Shown here in pieces: positions 3,607-22,419 of a stretch of 22,419 nt of DNA. The position numbers and the translations under genes were made by a program. This DNA comes from a virus, in IMG/VR virus record IMGVR_UViG_3300013123_000041, positions 1-22,419 of that record; one strand, given 5' to 3'. The notes under the pieces are model-generated. The model saw only the letters and a program-made list of their open reading frames with translations. It was not told where the DNA came from and did not search any database. Position 1 is the first letter of the stretch; the number at the start of each line of letters is the position of its first letter.

Positions 3607-4215
3607 ATGGAGGAAAAAGAAGTTTGCCCTTATTGTGGGGCAGAAAAAAAAGAAGTAGCAACGCACTCATTAACGACCGGACTGGTTAGGGATTTGATAA
3701 TTTTTGCCAAAAGAGCAAAGGAAAAAGGAGAAAACAAGGTTCACATAACAAAAGAGTTGGACTTTTCTATAAATCAATGGTGCAATTTTCAGAAATTAAG
3801 GTATTTCGGATTAGTGGCAAAATGGGAAGCGGAGGACGGAAACAAAAAAACTGGGTTTTGGGTTCTCACGAGGAACGGATTGGATTTTTTGCAGGGGAAA
3901 TTGAGTGTTCATAAAAAGGTGAGCGCTACAAAAAAAGGGATAACGGAACGATCGGAGGAAATGGTTTGCATTGATGATTTTCCGCAAAGTGATGAAAATT
4001 ATTGGCAAAAAGATTTTAATATAGAAATAAATAACGGTAAAATTACGCCTATGGAAGAAGAAAAAAAAGCAGAAACTCCGCCGGAAAAACAGCCGAATGT
4101 TATGATTCGTTGTCCAAAATGCGGAGGGGGAATGTTTAAGCAAAGAGTAGCGGATCAAATTTCGGGAAAATCTCACGATGAGATACGGTGCTTGAGGTGC
4201 GGAAAGATTCTATGA
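3607..4215 (+). CDS. Zinc-ribbon and winged-helix-like protein
   Basis: Encodes 202 aa. The N-terminus has CPYCG (7-11). Residues about 25-100 look like a winged-helix domain (LVRDLIIFAKRAKEKG, then ITKELDFSINQWCNFQKLRYFGLV, then a wing before FWVLTRNGLDFL). A disordered acidic linker follows. The C-terminus is a four-Cys zinc ribbon with C169, C172, C195 and C198. This arrangement suggests a DNA-binding regulator, perhaps of phage transcription, but the target is unknown. It starts with the ATGGAGG context and no upstream SD. The stop overlaps the following start (ATGA). It is the best transcription-factor candidate seen in the window. Confidence 0.8.
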   Translation: MEEKEVCPYCGAEKKEVATHSLTTGLVRDLIIFAKRAKEKGENKVHITKELDFSINQWCNFQKLRYFGLVAKWEAEDGNKKTGFWVLTRNGLDFLQGKLSVHKKVSATKKGITERSEEMVCIDDFPQSDENYWQKDFNIEINNGKITPMEEEKKAETPPEKQPNVMIRCPKCGGGMFKQRVADQISGKSHDEIRCLRCGKIL

Positions 4216-4847
4216 TTCCGAAAATAATCCACCATATTTGGGTGGGAGATAAGCCGAAGCCGTCCAAGATAATGAAAACTTGGCAGGAAAAGCACCCGGA
4301 CTTCCAGTATATCGAATGGAAGGAAAATGATTTCAGCACGATGAAGTTCCGTTGCCAAAAGCAGATAGATCAGATGATGAGCGCCGGAAGATATAACGGA
4401 GTGGCTGACATTATGCGCTATGAGATTTTATATGAACTGGGAGGATTTGTAGCGCCAGCCGACAGTATTTGCTTAAACTCCATTGAGGACTTGCTCGATT
4501 GCGATTGCTTTTGTTGCTATGAGAATGAAGCGCGCCGTCCGGGGCTTCTCTCTCCGCACATTGGAAGCTATCAGGGAAATGAGTTTCTAAATACGATCAT
4601 CGAACGGATAGCAAAAATGGACAATATGCTATGGGCTGATCCGTGGATAGTTACCGGGAATAAGCTCCTCACGGATATTGTCGCGGAAACAGGCTACAAA
4701 ATTAAGGTTTATCCAAGTCATTATTTTATACCAGACCATTACACAGGATTGAGCTACCGGGGCGACGGCAAGATTTACGCCAAGCACCTATGGGGAACGA
4801 CAAAATCAATCTATGGAGAACTGGACGAAATGTATGCGCAAAATTAG
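4212..4847 (+). CDS. GT32-type glycosyltransferase with altered DXD motif
   Basis: Encodes 211 aa from the ATG at 4212, in an ATGA overlap with the previous stop; eight more in-frame codons exist upstream but lie inside that gene. The family signature (glycosyltransferase sugar-binding region, Och1-like) is clear: MIPKIIHHIWVGDKPKP at the N-terminus, WQEKHPDFQYIEW, and NGVADIMRYEILYELGGF (62-79). The metal-binding site that follows is normally GG-x-Y-x-D-x-D. Here it reads GGFVAPADS, so the first Asp is Pro82 and only D84 remains. Family members transfer sugars from nucleotide donors. A phage copy could modify virion or host-surface glycans, but loss of the first Asp makes activity uncertain. 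Confidence 0.88.
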   Translation: MIPKIIHHIWVGDKPKPSKIMKTWQEKHPDFQYIEWKENDFSTMKFRCQKQIDQMMSAGRYNGVADIMRYEILYELGGFVAPADSICLNSIEDLLDCDCFCCYENEARRPGLLSPHIGSYQGNEFLNTIIERIAKMDNMLWADPWIVTGNKLLTDIVAETGYKIKVYPSHYFIPDHYTGLSYRGDGKIYAKHLWGTTKSIYGELDEMYAQN

Positions 4848-5034
4848 AGAAAAAACTTGTTATTGCCACACTTGCGATAAATGGTTTCATCCTCTCGGAA
4901 TAATGATGCACCGAGCAAAACACAGAAACAAAAGGGAGGATTGCAAAATCACATTCACATACGGAGATACTTGGAGATATAATTATTCAAAAAAACAATA
5001 TGAAAGTCGTAAGAATCACAGTTTCGGCTTTTGA
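4834..5034 (+). CDS. C2H2-like zinc-finger protein
   Basis: Encodes 66 aa from the ATG at 4834. An alternative in-frame ATG at 4813 would give 73 aa but would lie deeper inside the glycosyltransferase end. The sequence C11-H-T-C14-DKWFHPLGIMMH26-RAK-H30 is a good C2H2-type zinc finger, followed by a basic helix (RNKRED) and an aromatic tail. Similar one-finger proteins are common in environmental phage genomes and probably bind DNA or RNA. The gene overlaps both neighbours, which is usual here. The stop is well inside the following gene (35-base overlap), so that neighbour's start could also be later. Confidence 0.75.
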   Translation: MRKIREKTCYCHTCDKWFHPLGIMMHRAKHRNKREDCKITFTYGDTWRYNYSKKQYESRKNHSFGF

Positions 5035-5263
5035 CACAGATCGTCAATCAGAGCCGGAATTTCAAAGGGAGTTGACCGAAAGGTTGCTCAAAGCTGGATT
5101 TATCCTAAGCGATAATTATCCGATTATCCGGCAACCGAGGAGCGACATCGACGGAGCGGACTTCATTCAGTTGCAGTATAGCTGGTTTGATAAGTTCGAT
5201 ATTGATATTCAGTATTTCAAGTGGAAGATATGGAAGTGGTTTAAGGTTAAATTCGGGGTATGA
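5000..5263 (+). CDS. Hypothetical protein
   Basis: Encodes 87 aa without recognised motifs. The N-terminus (VVRITVSAFDTDRQ) looks like a beta strand, then ELTERLLKAGFILS is an amphipathic helix. The C-terminal third is very rich in aromatic residues and Lys (FKWKIWKWFKVKFG), an unusual composition that might bind membrane or nucleic acid. The end overlaps the next start (ATGA). The function is unknown. Confidence 0.65.
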   Translation: MKVVRITVSAFDTDRQSEPEFQRELTERLLKAGFILSDNYPIIRQPRSDIDGADFIQLQYSWFDKFDIDIQYFKWKIWKWFKVKFGV

Positions 5264-5484
5264 CGCAGAAAGAATGGAGGAAATTAAAAACCGGAGATTG
5301 GATTAAATTCGGGGAGAACGGCAGACCAAGAAAGATACTGAAAGCCACGAAGCACGACGGAAAAACAGGGTGCGTTACGCTTCGGCAGATAGGATATTCT
5401 TATCTCGGTCGTCCGAATGGCAAACGGACAGTTGTCTATGTAGCGTGTGATTGCAGAATGTTTATAAAAATTAAAAAACAATAA
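5260..5484 (+). CDS. Small hypothetical protein, probably beta-rich
   Basis: Encodes 74 aa. Alternating strands (DWIKFGENGRPRKILKA, CVTLRQIGYSY, TVVYVACDCRMFIKI) look like a small SH3-like barrel, and the protein is basic overall. It is translationally coupled to the previous gene by ATGA. I do not recognise the family; a nucleic-acid-binding role would fit the charge but is not shown. Confidence 0.65.
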   Translation: MTQKEWRKLKTGDWIKFGENGRPRKILKATKHDGKTGCVTLRQIGYSYLGRPNGKRTVVYVACDCRMFIKIKKQ

Positions 5485-5486
5485 CT

Positions 5487-6005
5487 ATGAAAAGGGAATT
5501 GAGTATTCCAAGCGCGGTCGGGTTTTGCAAAAATTGCTTCCGTTCGCGTAGGCACGGATCAGCATATTGTGGTCAATGCCAAGACGAGCCGGAGCGAATG
5601 AAAGTTTATCAGGACGTGGCGCACGAGTTTCCGCTCTACAAAAAGGTCGTCGATAAGTTCAATTTGACCAAAGAGGAGCTGAAAAATATCATTTTTACCT
5701 ACGGAGATACGATTTATTGCGATCACGACCTACCTTATGGGCTGATCGCGCACGAAATCACGCACGTTTTCCAACAGCTTGAAATGGGAACAGAGATATG
5801 GTGGGAGAAGTATCTCAAAGGCAATAAATTCAGGCTAGGACAAGAGTTAGCGGCGTATCAGCGTCAATATAGGGTTATCCGGGAAAACAACGCAGGAAAG
5901 GCAGAATTTGACGCTCACGCTATGGCGCGCGACCTATCCAGCCATACTTACGGAAATATCATCGAGGAGGACAAGGCGCTTGAACTGATAAAGGAGGAGA
6001 AATAG
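5487..6005 (+). CDS. HEITH zinc metallopeptidase with N-terminal zinc ribbon
   Basis: The 172-aa protein has two parts. Residues 14-31 hold CKNC and CGQC, a four-Cys zinc ribbon. Residues about 60-130 carry LIAHEITHVFQQ with the HExxH zinc-peptidase motif (H89, E90, H93), followed after about 27 residues by FRLGQELAAYQRQY, where E120 is a likely third zinc ligand. This gluzincin-like arrangement is seen in small phage and bacterial peptidases of unknown substrate. There is no signal peptide, so it acts inside the cell; head maturation, host takeover or anti-defence are all possible. It is the last gene before the Lys-rich peptide and the structured gap. Confidence 0.8.
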   Translation: MKRELSIPSAVGFCKNCFRSRRHGSAYCGQCQDEPERMKVYQDVAHEFPLYKKVVDKFNLTKEELKNIIFTYGDTIYCDHDLPYGLIAHEITHVFQQLEMGTEIWWEKYLKGNKFRLGQELAAYQRQYRVIRENNAGKAEFDAHAMARDLSSHTYGNIIEEDKALELIKEEK

Positions 6006-6038
6006 AAATAAAAATTAAAAATAGAATGGAGGTGCAAT

Positions 6039-6140
6039 ATGCAAAAGAGAAACAAATTGGGGCAATTCGCTCCGGGAAAGAAAAAGGCGACCAAAAAGAA
6101 AGCCGTCAAAAAGGCAATCAAGAAATCAAAGAAAAAATAG
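6039..6140 (+). CDS. Lys/Ala-rich basic peptide (33 aa)
   Basis: A short ORF with an excellent SD (GGAGGT at 6028-6033, five bases before the ATG) encodes MQKRNKLGQFAPGKKKA followed by an almost pure Lys/Ala tail containing KKKAVKKA. The tail resembles the C-termini of histone H1-like and HU-type nucleoid proteins, so nonspecific DNA or RNA binding is the natural inference. The GQFAPG start is like small phage proteins with a G-x-F motif. A longer ORF in another frame (6026-6226) runs across the structured gap and lacks an SD, so I prefer this frame. A 21-base stretch here (6096-6116) is repeated exactly in the gene at 18608. Confidence 0.75.
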   Translation: MQKRNKLGQFAPGKKKATKKKAVKKAIKKSKKK

Positions 6141-6144
6141 CTTC

Positions 6145-6246
6145 AAGCTGGTGCGTATCGTCTGTGTATCCCCCTTTCGCGCAAGCGAAAGCACAGATCA
6201 AGGTGTCAAGATACGTTAAATGTTAGACCAACAAAACAGCCAGCTT
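6145..6246 (+). ncRNA. Candidate structured RNA with three-way-junction geometry
   Basis: Nested inverted repeats fill this gap. P1 is AAGCTGG (6145-6151) with CCAGCTT (6240-6246). P2 is CGTATC (6154-6159) with GATACG (6210-6215), extendable by a G-U pair. P3 is TCTGTG (6161-6166) with CACAGA (6192-6197). P4 is CTTTCGC (6174-6180) with GCGAAAG (6185-6191) around a GCAA tetraloop. P5 is TGTT (6221-6224) with AACA (6230-6233). P1 encloses the P2-P4 arm and P5, giving a three-way junction. I do not recognise an Rfam family, see no promoter just upstream, and there is no T-run after P1, so it is not a simple terminator. Expression and strand are inferred. Confidence 0.55.
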
Positions 6247-6258
6247 ACAGGAAAACAC

Positions 6259-6286
6259 TTGACTTTTTGTGCGGATATGCTATAAT
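6259..6286 (+). promoter_or_regulatory. Strong sigma70-type promoter with extended -10
   Basis: The -35 is TTGACT (6259-6264), the spacer is 16 bp and the -10 is TATAAT (6281-6286), preceded by TG plus one base (6278-6280, extended -10). Predicted transcription start is near 6293. It lies in noncoding DNA 13 bases after the structured element and reads into the lysozyme-like gene at 6351. The -35 and following bases match the promoter at 8320. Confidence 0.85.
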
Positions 6287-6292
6287 GGACGT

Positions 6293-6350
6293 AATGGTGG
6301 GGTGAGCCATAGGGTGAAACCGGGTGAACCTAAACATTAAAAATAAAAAA
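6293..6350 (+). promoter_or_regulatory. Leader with three GGGTGA repeats
   Basis: Between the predicted transcription start and the ATG at 6351 are three copies of GGGTGA (6300-6305, 6312-6317, 6322-6327), each followed within a few bases by CC, so each could form a tiny GGT/ACC hairpin. The rest is A-rich with no SD. The tandem arrangement suggests a protein-binding site in RNA or DNA; no binder is identified. Confidence 0.45.
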
Positions 6351-16010: not shown

Positions 16011-16649
16011 ATGGAGGAAGAAAAACTGTCGGTTTTCCTAGCAATTCCGACAATGGGCGATATTTCCATTCAGTTTATGGAATCAATCGTCAAGATGATC
16101 CTTGAAACTAAGAGAAAATATCCAAGTTGTGAGTTCGAGATCGTGTCGTGTATTCGCAAAATGCACCACCGGGCGCGAACAGAACTAGCGGAAAAGTTTT
16201 TAGAATCAAGTTGCACACATATTCTTTGGGTAGATGATGATAATATTCCGGGAGAAAATGACCTTATCACTTTGCTCGAAGATAATCTGCCTCTTGTTTC
16301 CGGAATCTATTTCAGGCGAGAATATCCGCATAATCCAGTCATTATAATGACGAAGCAGGACGGAATCGGCTCGGAGATACGACCAGACCTCTACGATCCA
16401 GTGAATAGACCTATAATCGACGTTTTCGCGGTAGGAATGGGATTTATGCTCATACAGCGTGAGGCTATGGAGAAGATAAAGGGTGTGGGCGCGTCGATGT
16501 TCGATGTTCGGGGAAATGTTGGGGAAGATGTATGGTTTTGCGCTCAGGCACACGTAGCAGGGATAGCAGTCAAGATAGATCAGAAAGTGGAGGTCGGACA
16601 CTTGGGGGATAGAAAAATGATAAAAGGCGAGAGTTTTTTAATAGGGTAA
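16011..16649 (+). CDS. GT-A (GT2-like) glycosyltransferase
   Basis: Encodes 212 aa. It starts with a Rossmann-like strand (LSVFLAIPTMGDISIQF), then MHHRARTELAEKFL, and THILWVDDDNIPG containing DDD (75-77), the metal- and nucleotide-sugar-binding site. Later VFAVGMGFMLIQREAMEKI, GEDVWF (171-176) and VGHLGD with H197 fit the acceptor side and late metal ligand of GT-A enzymes. It presumably transfers a sugar to a virion protein or host glycan; being among head/tail genes favours virion decoration. Unlike the transferase at 4212 its metal site looks intact. It starts in the ATGGAGG context. Confidence 0.88.
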   Translation: MEEEKLSVFLAIPTMGDISIQFMESIVKMILETKRKYPSCEFEIVSCIRKMHHRARTELAEKFLESSCTHILWVDDDNIPGENDLITLLEDNLPLVSGIYFRREYPHNPVIIMTKQDGIGSEIRPDLYDPVNRPIIDVFAVGMGFMLIQREAMEKIKGVGASMFDVRGNVGEDVWFCAQAHVAGIAVKIDQKVEVGHLGDRKMIKGESFLIG

Positions 16650-19557: not shown

Positions 19558-20118
19558 ATGGCAGACCCAGTAAAAAACTTCGTTAAAGTCAATGTTTCTA
19601 CCGGATATGACGATACCGCCACGTCCGTAGTTTTGGCGACTGGACACGGAGCTAAACTGCCCGACCCTGCTACGCTTGGAGCTTTCGATATTGTTTGGTG
19701 GAATTTCACCGATTATCCCGATCCGTCGGACGACACGAATGTTGAAATAGTGAGAGTAACCGCCAAAAGCGGAGATACCTTGACAATTACGAGAGCGCAA
19801 CAAAGCACGGCGGCAACAACGAAAAATGCTGGTGGAAAAACCTACAAGATGATTCTTACGCCAACAGCAAAGACCATATCGGACATTTTGGCTCTAATAG
19901 CCAATTTGACTGCGGTAAAAATAGGAGAAGCTCCTACCGGAGATATAGACAGTTCAAACGACACATTCACGCTTTCAAATTCTCCGATAGAATTAGCTCT
20001 GTATCTCAATGGGCAACGACTGACTGTGAGCGATGATTATTCCATAAGCGACGATACAATAACAATGAGCATACCACCTTTCACGGGAGATGTGCTTCTA
20101 GCTGATTACACCTACTAA
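19558..20118 (+). CDS. Tail fibre/adhesion-associated protein
   Basis: Encodes 186 aa. The N-terminus (MADPVKNFVKVNVSTGYDD) and TSVVLATGHGAKLPDPATLG look like a repeated adhesion-protein fold; residues 60-100 hold VEIVRVTAKSGDTLTITRAQ. The C-terminal domain FTLSNSPIELALYLNGQRLT, then YSISDDTITMSIPPF, resembles a small beta domain common in phage fibres. It overlaps the next start by one base (TAATG), linking its translation to the fibre triplet. Role in host attachment is inferred. Confidence 0.75.
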   Translation: MADPVKNFVKVNVSTGYDDTATSVVLATGHGAKLPDPATLGAFDIVWWNFTDYPDPSDDTNVEIVRVTAKSGDTLTITRAQQSTAATTKNAGGKTYKMILTPTAKTISDILALIANLTAVKIGEAPTGDIDSSNDTFTLSNSPIELALYLNGQRLTVSDDYSISDDTITMSIPPFTGDVLLADYTY

Positions 20119-20630
20119 TGACAAAATTAAGAAAAGAACAATTCAAAGATATTCTGCAAACCTTGCACCCGGTAGGTTCTATTTACTTCTCTACCCTATC
20201 AACAAATCCGGCTACACTTCTCGGTTTTGGAACTTGGACAGCGTGGGCGGCTGGGAAAACACCTGTCGGAGTAGATAGCGGAGATGCTAATCTTGACGCG
20301 GCAGAAGATACATATGGAGCAAAAACAGTTACGCTGGTAGAAGCAAACCTGCCTACTCATCTTCATACTGTAAATCCACCCTCGACGGAATCATCAGATC
20401 AATCAGTAACTCATAATCATACGCAGAGCTACCGAAGTTCAAGCGGCAATTCCGGTTCGGGTGGAACTAAGTGGGGCAATACTTCTTCTCAAACATCGGG
20501 TAATAATTCAGTTTCCCATACTCATACGCTTGATATTGCGGAATTTAATTCGGGAAGTTACGGAGGTGACGGAGCGCATAATAATATCCAACCTAGTATT
20601 GTCGCTTATATGTGGAAGCGAACAGCATAA
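20118..20630 (+). CDS. Collar/fibre-tip protein, copy 1 of 3
   Basis: Encodes 170 aa. LHPVGSIYFSTLSTNPATLL, FGTWTAWAAGKTPVGVDSGD, then LPTHLHTVNPP and THNHTQSY, and the end HTHTLDIAEFNSG, AHNNIQPSIVAYMWKRTA. The pattern P-x-G-S-I-Y, FG-x-G-x-W, two His-rich HxH motifs and a C-terminal HNN-x-Q-P closure is typical of phage tail-collar or short-fibre tips (T4 gp12-like), whose HxH sites bind metal in a trimer. Its neighbours at 20635 and 21150 are paralogues. It probably touches the host surface. Confidence 0.85.
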   Translation: MTKLRKEQFKDILQTLHPVGSIYFSTLSTNPATLLGFGTWTAWAAGKTPVGVDSGDANLDAAEDTYGAKTVTLVEANLPTHLHTVNPPSTESSDQSVTHNHTQSYRSSSGNSGSGGTKWGNTSSQTSGNNSVSHTHTLDIAEFNSGSYGGDGAHNNIQPSIVAYMWKRTA

Positions 20631-20634
20631 AAAT

Positions 20635-21150
20635 ATGGCTACAAAAATACGAAAAGAACAGACCTCAATAATGCAAGCGCTTTATCCGGTAGGAAAGGTT
20701 TATGTTTCTATAACATCAACAAATCCGGCTACATTGTTCGGATTTGGCACTTGGGAAGCATTCGGCGCTGGCAGGGTTATGGTGTGTTTGAATAGTGGAG
20801 ATACTGATTTTGATACATTAGGAGAAACAGGGGGAGAAAAAACTCACGTTTTGACTGAATCTGAAATTACAGCTCATTCGCATAAAGTAAATCCGCCACA
20901 AACAACCTCGTCGGGACAGTCAGCAACGCATACTCATACTTATTACACTAAAAGCGGAACAGGAAATACTGCCTCAAATAATGTTCCAAACTGGAAAGGA
21001 ACAACCACAATTAATATGGGAAATGCAAGCGCAGGGCATACTCACACTTTTGACATAGCCGAGTTTAACTCAGGAAATGTAGGAAGCGGAACGGCTCATA
21101 ATAATATGCAACCCTCGATAGCAGTTTATCTATTTAAGAGAACGGCATAA
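20635..21150 (+). CDS. Collar/fibre-tip protein, copy 2 of 3
   Basis: Encodes 171 aa from ATG 20635; the in-frame sequence upstream lies inside copy 1. It shares with copy 1 LYPVGKVYVSITSTNPATLF, FGTWEAFGAGRVMVCLNSGD, ITAHSHKVNPP, ATHTHTYYTK, HTHTFDIAEFNSG and the closing AHNNMQPSIAVYLFKRTA. The middle segment (KSGTGNTASNNVPNWKGTTT) differs from the other copies in sequence and length, as expected for a binding surface. It overlaps copy 3 by TAATG. Confidence 0.85.
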   Translation: MATKIRKEQTSIMQALYPVGKVYVSITSTNPATLFGFGTWEAFGAGRVMVCLNSGDTDFDTLGETGGEKTHVLTESEITAHSHKVNPPQTTSSGQSATHTHTYYTKSGTGNTASNNVPNWKGTTTINMGNASAGHTHTFDIAEFNSGNVGSGTAHNNMQPSIAVYLFKRTA

Positions 21151-21677
21151 TGGCTACATTACTACGAAAAGAACAAACGGAACTTTTGGAGATAGAATAT
21201 CCTATCGGTTGTTTGTATATCTCGACAGTTTCAACTGATCCGGCAGATTTGTTCGGATTTGGCACTTGGTCGCTTTTCGGTTCGGGGAGGATAATGGTCG
21301 GAATTGATAGCGGCGACACAGATTTTGATACTGCCGAGGAAACACGCGGAACTAAAACTCATACGCTAGTTGAAGCAGAAATTCCGGCACATTTGCACAC
21401 GGTAAATCCACCCTCGACAACTTCCGGAAATAATTCCGCTACGCATACTCATACCTACACTAGATATAGCACTGTTACGCATAATAAATCTGGAAGCGCG
21501 CAACCAGCGTGTTGGACTGGAAATCCAGGTTCATCGGTTAATTCCGGGAATGCATCACAAGATCACACCCACACAGTTGATATAGCAGAATTTGATTCAG
21601 GAAATGCAGGTTCGGGAGGAGCGCATAATAATTTACAGCCATACGTAGTCGTTTGCGTATGGAAAAGAACAGCCTAA
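21150..21677 (+). CDS. Collar/fibre-tip protein, copy 3 of 3
   Basis: Encodes 175 aa. Again YPIGCLYISTVSTDPADLFG, FGTWSLFGSGRIMVGIDSGD, IPAHLHTVNPP, ATHTHTYTRY, HTHTVDIAEFDSG and the end AHNNLQPYVVVCVWKRTA. The variable middle is longest here and has Ser/Gly/Trp (KSGSAQPACWTGNPGSSVN). The three tandem copies may encode alternative tips or subunits of one mixed fibre. It is followed at 21679 by the repeat protein. Confidence 0.85.
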   Translation: MATLLRKEQTELLEIEYPIGCLYISTVSTDPADLFGFGTWSLFGSGRIMVGIDSGDTDFDTAEETRGTKTHTLVEAEIPAHLHTVNPPSTTSGNNSATHTHTYTRYSTVTHNKSGSAQPACWTGNPGSSVNSGNASQDHTHTVDIAEFDSGNAGSGGAHNNLQPYVVVCVWKRTA

Positions 21678-21678
21678 T

Positions 21679-22419
21679 ATGTTTGGAACATCAGCCTACG
21701 GATCAGTCGAATATGGAGGAGAACAACAGCGAGGACTAAACTATTCGTCGGCGGTTTCTGACATCATCAATTTAACAGACAGCAAATTATTCGGGAGAAT
21801 AAAGACAATCATTGAAAATATCGGGATTACGCCAGTTCTTTCAAGGTTAGGAGAATTTTACAGAAGCATATCAGATACGCTTTCGCTTACTGACGTTACT
21901 GACGGAATAAGAGCGCGCGTCAAGGTGTTGCTGGATATGATAAATCTCGCAGATTCCATATCTCGCGCGATCATCGCATTGAGAAACGAGGTTATTTCAA
22001 CGCTCGACAGTATAAAAAAGGTTATTTCAAGGGCATATTCAGACAGTTTCACATTCACGGAAAGCATTGTTACGACTTTCTTTTTCTATGAAACTCTCTC
22101 GGAAGTAGTGAAAGTAGCGGACAATTTCGTAAAATCTACCATTAAAAATATCTCGGAAAGCATATCAGTTAGCGGCTCAATGCAAAAATTAAAGCAAATT
22201 TTCAGGACATTTACGGAAAACATCGTAGCTTCGGAAGCTTTTTCAAGATTAAGGACGGCTTACAAGAATTTTTCTGAAACAATAGTAATAACGGATATTT
22301 TCTCATCAGTAGCGAGGAAAATATTAAAAGCGATAGCCAAGATAAAGGGCGTTTCGGTATTCGGCAGTATTCTCTCGGAAAGACTTTTCGGAAAAATGAA
22401 CAAGCCGGGAGCGTCGGGA
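21679..22419 (+). CDS. Repeat-containing tail protein, cut by window end
   Basis: An open frame of 247 codons without stop runs to the last base. It begins MFGTSAYGSVEYGGE and continues in degenerate repeats of about 20 residues with a Ser-rich core: ISDTLSLTDVTDG, YSDSFTFTESIV, ISESISVSGSM, FTENIVASEAF, FSETIVITDIF. Repeats alternate short strand-like Ser/Thr parts with helical spacers (RARVKVLLDM, RLRTAYKN). This suits an elongated fibre or tail-shaft protein. Because the end is missing, full size and C-terminal domain are unknown. Position after the fibre triplet supports a fibre function. Confidence 0.8.
   Translation, partial: MFGTSAYGSVEYGGEQQRGLNYSSAVSDIINLTDSKLFGRIKTIIENIGITPVLSRLGEFYRSISDTLSLTDVTDGIRARVKVLLDMINLADSISRAIIALRNEVISTLDSIKKVISRAYSDSFTFTESIVTTFFFYETLSEVVKVADNFVKSTIKNISESISVSGSMQKLKQIFRTFTENIVASEAFSRLRTAYKNFSETIVITDIFSSVARKILKAIAKIKGVSVFGSILSERLFGKMNKPGASG

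Follow-up and report, generated by a model that had tools for sequence, protein, structure and literature searches.

The DNA analysed here, which we call the window, is a 22.4 kb virus record that is probably incomplete, with its final gene cut by the window end. At 20118-21677 it carries three complete open reading frames (ORFs), g1, g2, and g3, arranged head to tail (Table 1). The three products match the whole Pfam profile PF21939 (Gp10_C) with scores of 103.4, 107.3, and 100.8 bits, respectively, against a curated cut-off of 27 bits, and in the tip proteins the domain begins at residue 12-13. A search of the whole record with g3 as query finds exactly three places, with E values of 3e-121, 4e-63, and 4e-56. 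The three-copy paralogy is far beyond chance, in agreement with the initial annotation, which had reported three adjacent paralogues here.

Table 1. Features of the fibre locus and of the three tip genes
Feature	Position	Strand	Evidence or remark
Upstream tail gene, 186 aa	18994..19554	+	syntenic with the fibre locus in relatives L094 and L114
Putative fibre anchor, 186 aa	19558..20118	+	N-terminal ~100 aa conserved in other phages' fibre proteins
g1, stand-alone Gp10_C tip, 170 aa, 18.0 kDa	20118..20630	+	PF21939 2.5e-29
g2, stand-alone Gp10_C tip, 171 aa, 18.2 kDa	20635..21150	+	PF21939 1.6e-30; ATG at 20635
g3, stand-alone Gp10_C tip, 175 aa, 18.7 kDa	21150..21677	+	PF21939 1.6e-28
First HxH pair	g1 20358..20366 (H81/H83); g2 20875-20883; g3 21390-21398	+	
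Second HxH pair	g1 20412..20420 (H99/H101); g2 20929-20937; g3 21444-21452	+	
Third HxH pair	g1 20517..20525 (H134/H136); g2 21037-21045; g3 21564-21572	+	
Variable centre of g1 (alignment columns 101-130)	20415..20489	+	alignment
Variable centre of g2	20932..21009	+	alignment
Variable centre of g3; low-confidence model region	21447..21536	+	alignment, AF2 model
Downstream gene, cut by window end	21679..22419	+	starts MFGTSAYGSVEYGG, then SD/TD-containing repeats

The genes are tightly spaced. Specifically, the anchor gene stop and the g1 ATG overlap by 1 nt, the g1 stop is followed after 4 nt by the g2 ATG, the g3 ATG overlaps the g2 stop by 1 nt, and a gap of 1 nt separates g3 from the next gene. 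Misassembly as the source of the triplet was rejected because the copies differ at about 40% of sites. No Shine-Dalgarno site was found ahead of the triplet genes, which says nothing special about the triplet, because 33 of the 39 window genes also lack one. Shine-Dalgarno-like sites, by a criterion that we set, precede only 6 of the 39 gene starts in the window; ahead of many starts lies A-rich sequence, a possible hint to the host group.

The head module of the window, identified by Pfam search, comprises TerL (PF04466) and a capsid protein (PF17236 SU10_MCP, E 1e-8), and the 722-aa ORF between them, which has no Pfam match, is probably the portal, to judge purely from its position. Relatives of the window TerL in IMG/VR (66-86% identity) have the head genes in common, in the same order; most close TerL relatives end before the fibre locus, and L094 and L114, which reach it, have arrangements different from that of the window. 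A host from the phylum of the Moraniibacteriota metagenome-assembled genome (MAG) discussed below was considered but is not supported, the matches to the window TerL there being weak (best 33%, in 5 of 286 genomes). Elsewhere in the record, the early part encodes a DXD sugar transferase (PF04488, 4188-4847) and a GH25 muramidase (PF01183, 1768-2496), and a 212-aa ORF inside the structural gene module (16011-16649) is glycosyltransferase-like by eye, without a Pfam match; this ORF is kept in L094, L095, and L096, within the last as part of a 615-aa multi-domain protein.

Pairwise amino-acid identity between the copies is 53-60%, and 71 of the 176 columns of the g1-g3 alignment are invariant. 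The strongly differing middle that had been described earlier is borne out: alignment columns 101-130 include 3 invariant columns out of 30, versus 68 of 146 elsewhere, and hold 7 of the 9 gap columns. The N-terminal stretch M-A-T-x-L-R-K-E-Q is conserved among the copies, and the closing AHNN-x-QP, previously read as a common HNN-x-Q-P region, is invariant across g1-g3, as is KRTA. The number of HxH pairs per copy is three (residues 81/83, 99/101, and 134/136 to 139/141), one more than first counted. Among 79 relatives, a single HxH is found in 54 and three or more in 9; with three, the window copies belong to the long-needle form. NG86 estimates between copies give dS of 1.4-2.8, dN of 0.38-0.44, and dN/dS of about 0.13-0.30. 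Synonymous sites are near saturation or above and the copies are under purifying selection, a combination that points to old, intact, functional genes.

Profile and sequence searches of the PDB with the tips find T4 gp10 and the SU10 short tail fibre. An AF2 monomer model of g3, built from 82 sequences, has a mean pLDDT of 75.5; residues 1-90 are good, the N-terminal helix 2-16 is well predicted, and the needle is poor (pLDDT about 50). Foldseek with this model places the T4 gp10 C-terminal domain first (5iv5, 2fkk; E 1e-5), followed by weaker matches to fibre tips. Residues 108-266 of gp16, the short tail fibre of podophage SU10 (PDB 7z47), align with residues 17-174 of g3 (phmmer E 0.0011; profile E 8.6e-5). 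The PF21939 matches, together with homology to the T4 gp10 C-terminal domain and to the distal region of the SU10 short tail fibre, support the original description of the three as fibre-tip genes.

The window tips nevertheless differ from both relatives. SU10 gp16 comes from a single gene and includes a proximal domain (first 98 residues built), whereas the window tip is split from its anchor, has no such N-terminal proximal anchor in the same chain, as Gp10_C starts almost at once, and comes in three versions, each with three HxH pairs. The C-terminal domain of T4 gp10 belongs to the same Pfam family, Gp10_C, and shows no HxH in the alignment; gp10 has 602 residues, and its long N-terminal baseplate part of ~400 residues has no equivalent in tips of 170-175 aa. 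In SU10 gp16, two His pairs may bind iron (PMC9509320, excerpted text). The T4 gp37 tip has, as in the window, HxH pairs and a needle-like tip (PMC11705849, in excerpt); gp37 is, unlike our reading of the window, a single gene whose product forms a homotrimer with seven iron ions (PMC11705849 and PMC12724248, both in excerpt). By analogy to T4 gp37 and SU10, the HxH pairs of the window tips may bind metal.

The gene upstream of g1 looks like the detached N-terminal half of a fibre. Its product, which itself has no Gp10_C domain, shares 60% identity over 96 aa with the N-terminal end of a 279-aa protein encoded on a contig of the Moraniibacteriota MAG (L128), and that protein ends in a single Gp10_C. 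In addition, one PHROG profile, phrog_8469 (303 positions, tail fibre), covers both halves, with the anchor protein at 18-109, g2 at 168-301, and g3 at 163-300 (the g1 match is weak, E 0.01). It is this fusion and this shared profile that suggest the detached-half reading. The product of 18994..19554 matches phrog_5417 and phrog_4176 (tail fibre) and has tblastn matches of 52% to L094, 39% to L114, and 54% to L115. In L114, counterparts of the 18994, 19558, and 21679 genes are consecutive with no tip gene between (the 21679 match is weak, tblastn E 1.6e-4), and in L113 and L094 the anchor-like gene runs on into other sequence. From these arrangements, the locus is probably a variable receptor-binding position, here filled by three tips. 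A further arrangement, with window-like neighbours, is seen in L145:3-1495, where a Gp10_C gene end is followed by a YGG-type gene and a second Gp10_C fibre gene. The 21679-22419 protein has repeated SDxx/TD-type units, and dozens of similar units occur in a 1081-aa protein of L116:2469-5714.

A triplet is uncommon for Gp10_C itself. In 41 IMG/VR records, drawn from the best 80 of 598 stretches, one PF21939 place is present in 39 and two non-adjacent places, one place below the cut-off, in the remaining 2; no other PF21939 triplet was found in these records. When copies are counted per ORF, most apparent double matches being two pieces of one ORF, 79 of the best 80 of 598 IMG/VR stretches are single and 1 is double, and another set of 46 loci contains 36 single, 5 double, 1 triple, 1 quintuple, and 3 none. 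A search of IMG/VR with g3 alone gives only two weak loci. In INPHARED, g3 matches 1331 places in 1291 records and g2 matches 1692 places in 1590 records; by these counts, few records have more than one copy. Of 60 INPHARED records sampled evenly from the g2 search, two have three places and two have two places; one of those with three is T4-like and has, besides baseplate wedge genes, two tail collar fibre genes side by side. Adjacent Gp10_C gene pairs exist in L124 and L134. In L124:3320-6188 (Erysipelotrichaceae MAG), each product of the pair ends in Gp10_C, one being a pilin-like 689-aa protein and the other an apparently membrane-anchored neighbour.

A count of three recurs in PF07484 (collar), a related Pfam family separate from PF21939, to which none of g1-g3 has a match at E 1 or below. 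When the C-terminal part of the triplet served as query, 33 virus loci came up, with three adjacent collar ORFs in 27, two in 3, and one in 3; among the virus contigs with tandem collar ORFs (L167-L196), there are exactly three in 27 of 30 and two in 3. Six whole virus records of up to 190 kb carry the same collar triplet, one of them with a fourth place 2.5 kb away. We also surveyed PF07484 in 910 genomes from four phylum samples, each labelled by the phylum of its centre genome. The family is present in 39 of 150 genomes of the Pseudomonadota sample, 7 of 360 of the sample from the phylum of the Moraniibacteriota MAG, 11 of 199 of the Bacillota sample, and 12 of 201 of the Chloroflexota sample. 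Clusters, defined as places at gaps of up to 1500 bases, comprise 41 singles, 3 pairs, and 33 triplets, with none larger; one pair, located at the end of a contig, may be a truncated triplet, and the 33 triplets are not independent events because many share ancestry. The bacterial triplets, which we take to be of the 'microcystin-dependent protein' (MdpB/COG4675) type, consist, as in the window, of three adjacent ORFs of about 170-200 aa each (e.g. L161), and belong, unlike the window, to PF07484. No phage head-tail genes were seen beside the L161 collar triplet.

The members of these triplets group by position. For 8 non-redundant virus triplets, the first, second, and third members (p1, p2, and p3) form three clades, with SH-aLRT support of 99/95/99; this tree includes L170, a fragment at a contig end that has the same p2 and p3 sequences as L167. 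For 10 bacterial triplets, p2 forms one clade and p1 and p3 do not, and 4 label changes are needed versus 14.6 in shuffles; these are 10 of 14 triplets, rows from multi-domain ORFs (L208, L209, L211, L212) having been dropped. Position-specific clades imply that each member is maintained as a part in its own right; this holds throughout for the virus set and to some extent for the bacterial set.

In 8 of the 33 triplets, by the criterion of equal long frames, the three collars are fused in one frame, and three-collar single chains also occur in L146, L148 (twice), and L160. The proteins concerned (L146:4561-6924, L148:1320-4073 and 4054-6339, and L160:4000-6780, the last from a Saccharibacteria MAG) and those of L218-L221 (regions of G225, G452, G560, and G425) have 720-930 aa and exactly three collar domains per chain. 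The L146 protein has a prepilin methylation motif (PF07963), fn3, and three PF07484 domains, and the starts of L218-L220 are prepilin-like by eye. These chains resemble pilus-tip adhesins in which the fibre tip is a single chain. An AF2 model of a single-chain collar triplet has a pLDDT of 28, and the term 'collar' is absent from the Saccharibacteria pilus paper PMC12206443. The count-of-three pattern itself did not turn up among the open-licence papers listed for tandem collar paralogues or mixed trimers, which include one close precedent (PMC12724248, in excerpt).

This precedent is virophage DSLV2, in which three consecutive collar-domain genes, co-expressed from a polycistronic construct, give products that purify together in a complex of about 55 kDa (theoretical 58.3), with an AF3 score higher for the heterotrimer than for homotrimers (PMC12724248, as excerpted). 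The window resembles the DSLV2 tripartite tail in having three consecutive, similar-sized, stand-alone tips of the collar superfamily on the same strand with a variable distal part; the DSLV2 complex is published as 1:1:1 (same excerpt). It differs in that the DSLV2 tips are PF07484 collars of a virophage, whereas those of the window match PF21939 only and belong to a virus whose capsid protein is of SU10 type.

The DSLV2 complex, the collar count of three, and the position-specific grouping make one reading the most likely, at slightly less than even confidence: g1, g2, and g3 may encode the three different subunits of a single trimeric fibre tip, assembled as a 1:1:1 heterotrimer. This tip would have a mass of about 55 kDa (the three proteins sum to 54.9 kDa), with one Gp10_C/collar-plus-needle domain per subunit. 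The base shared by the trimer would consist of the conserved N-terminal stretch, in which helix 2-16 is predicted, and the gp10-like core; metal ions on the threefold axis would be encircled by the HxH pairs; and the three different centres would meet at the distal end in one asymmetric receptor-binding surface. The 19558-20118 protein would link the tip to the tail, and the tight gene spacing would allow matched co-synthesis. Further points in favour are that collars fused into single chains also number three, that all three window copies have been retained under purifying selection, and that the fibre looks split. Of the two functional ideas in the initial annotation, a mixed fibre thus appears better supported for this phage than alternative receptor specificities, because DSLV2 forms a 1:1:1 heterotrimer and tandem collars come overwhelmingly in threes.

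A heterotrimer must be set against the fact that the fold normally makes homotrimers, as the SU10 and T4 relatives with solved structures presumably do, that the surveyed triplets are PF07484, the 41 IMG/VR records holding no other PF21939 triplet, that Gp10_C genes also occur as adjacent pairs, and that the g3 model is weak in the needle. Three separate homotrimers, arising by an older duplication and giving tips with different receptors or structural jobs, rank second and are a possible, less probable reading. The model would be T4 gp10, gp11, and gp12, trimeric products of neighbouring genes with one fold. These three superimpose and are encoded sequentially on one polycistronic mRNA (PMC3004832, in part). 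In the T4-like Vibrio phage K491, too, baseplate wedge genes are followed by two adjacent tail collar fibre genes, and every window copy has its own complete domain and start. The SU10 long tail fibre is a trimer of gp12 (PMC9509320, excerpted text). However, separate homotrimers leave unexplained why tandem collar arrays stop at three and why positions within triplets are conserved, and the short N-terminus, being the same in all window copies, gives no hint of three different attachment sites.

It is unlikely that the copies were acquired separately at the variable receptor-binding locus instead of arising by triplication in place, an origin that would fit either assembly. L020 falls among the window copies in the best tree (support 86/71), the window copies form one clade in 0 of 200 bootstrap trees, and the interval from the anchor to the downstream gene varies among relatives; against this, a single-clade constraint is not rejected (p-AU 0.259), and the copies are closest to each other, at 55-60% versus 46% to the best outside match.

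The flanks of the variable centres, once thought identical and open to recombination, are not: nucleotide identity between copies is 59.5-60.8% pairwise, the longest exact stretches shared by copy pairs are 17, 19, and 21 nt, and near-identical exchange segments are absent. A permutation test for exchanged tracts gives a global P of 0.051, and one g1/g2 tract of 7 consecutive polymorphic sites has a P of 0.009; we see no clear sign of recent exchange in the sequences, which leaves recombination between copies unsupported. The exchange of His boxes in T4 gp37 is the model for tips stored as recombination donors while one copy is used at a time. Such a store is very improbable here: conserved HxH-bearing segments do flank the variable centre, T4 and Xanthomonas phages shift host range by tail-fibre duplications (PMC2248197, in excerpt), and the g1/g2 tract is shared, but divergence is high at synonymous sites and overall, all three copies are under purifying selection, and, in contrast to the truncated and inverted cassettes of L151, each is a complete ORF that has a start of its own. 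The L151 locus, L151:5156-7399 of Aurantimicrobium minutum MWH-Bo1, has a full-length tip gene followed by four truncated cassettes, the last inverted. A similar 52-nt segment is present there in four copies on the direct strand, a stretch of 19 nt at the beginning of this segment is found again, inverted, at the far end (95% complementary), and an integrase-like ORF lies nearby. L151 is likely to be a real tip-cassette array and looks like an invertible or shuffling one.

Returning to the heterotrimer, we propose more tentatively still that a tailed-phage tip can be an obligate ABC heterotrimer and that the collar fold follows a wider rule, being encoded once or exactly three times: once would give a homotrimer, three times a heterotrimer, as three genes or one chain. 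The proposed rule would span phages, virophages, bacterial gene clusters, and pilin-like proteins. Phage fibre tips are usually taken to be homotrimers that present three copies of a single receptor site; in an asymmetric tip, three loops sharing a receptor-binding site could each evolve on its own. If three-gene tips are heterotrimers, specificity would depend on three loops that evolve independently, predicting the host from a single gene would give an incomplete answer, and the recurrent three in collar-domain arrays would have a simple structural reason. A viral tip module would then be linked to collar triplets in bacterial genomes, some of them on pilin-like proteins.
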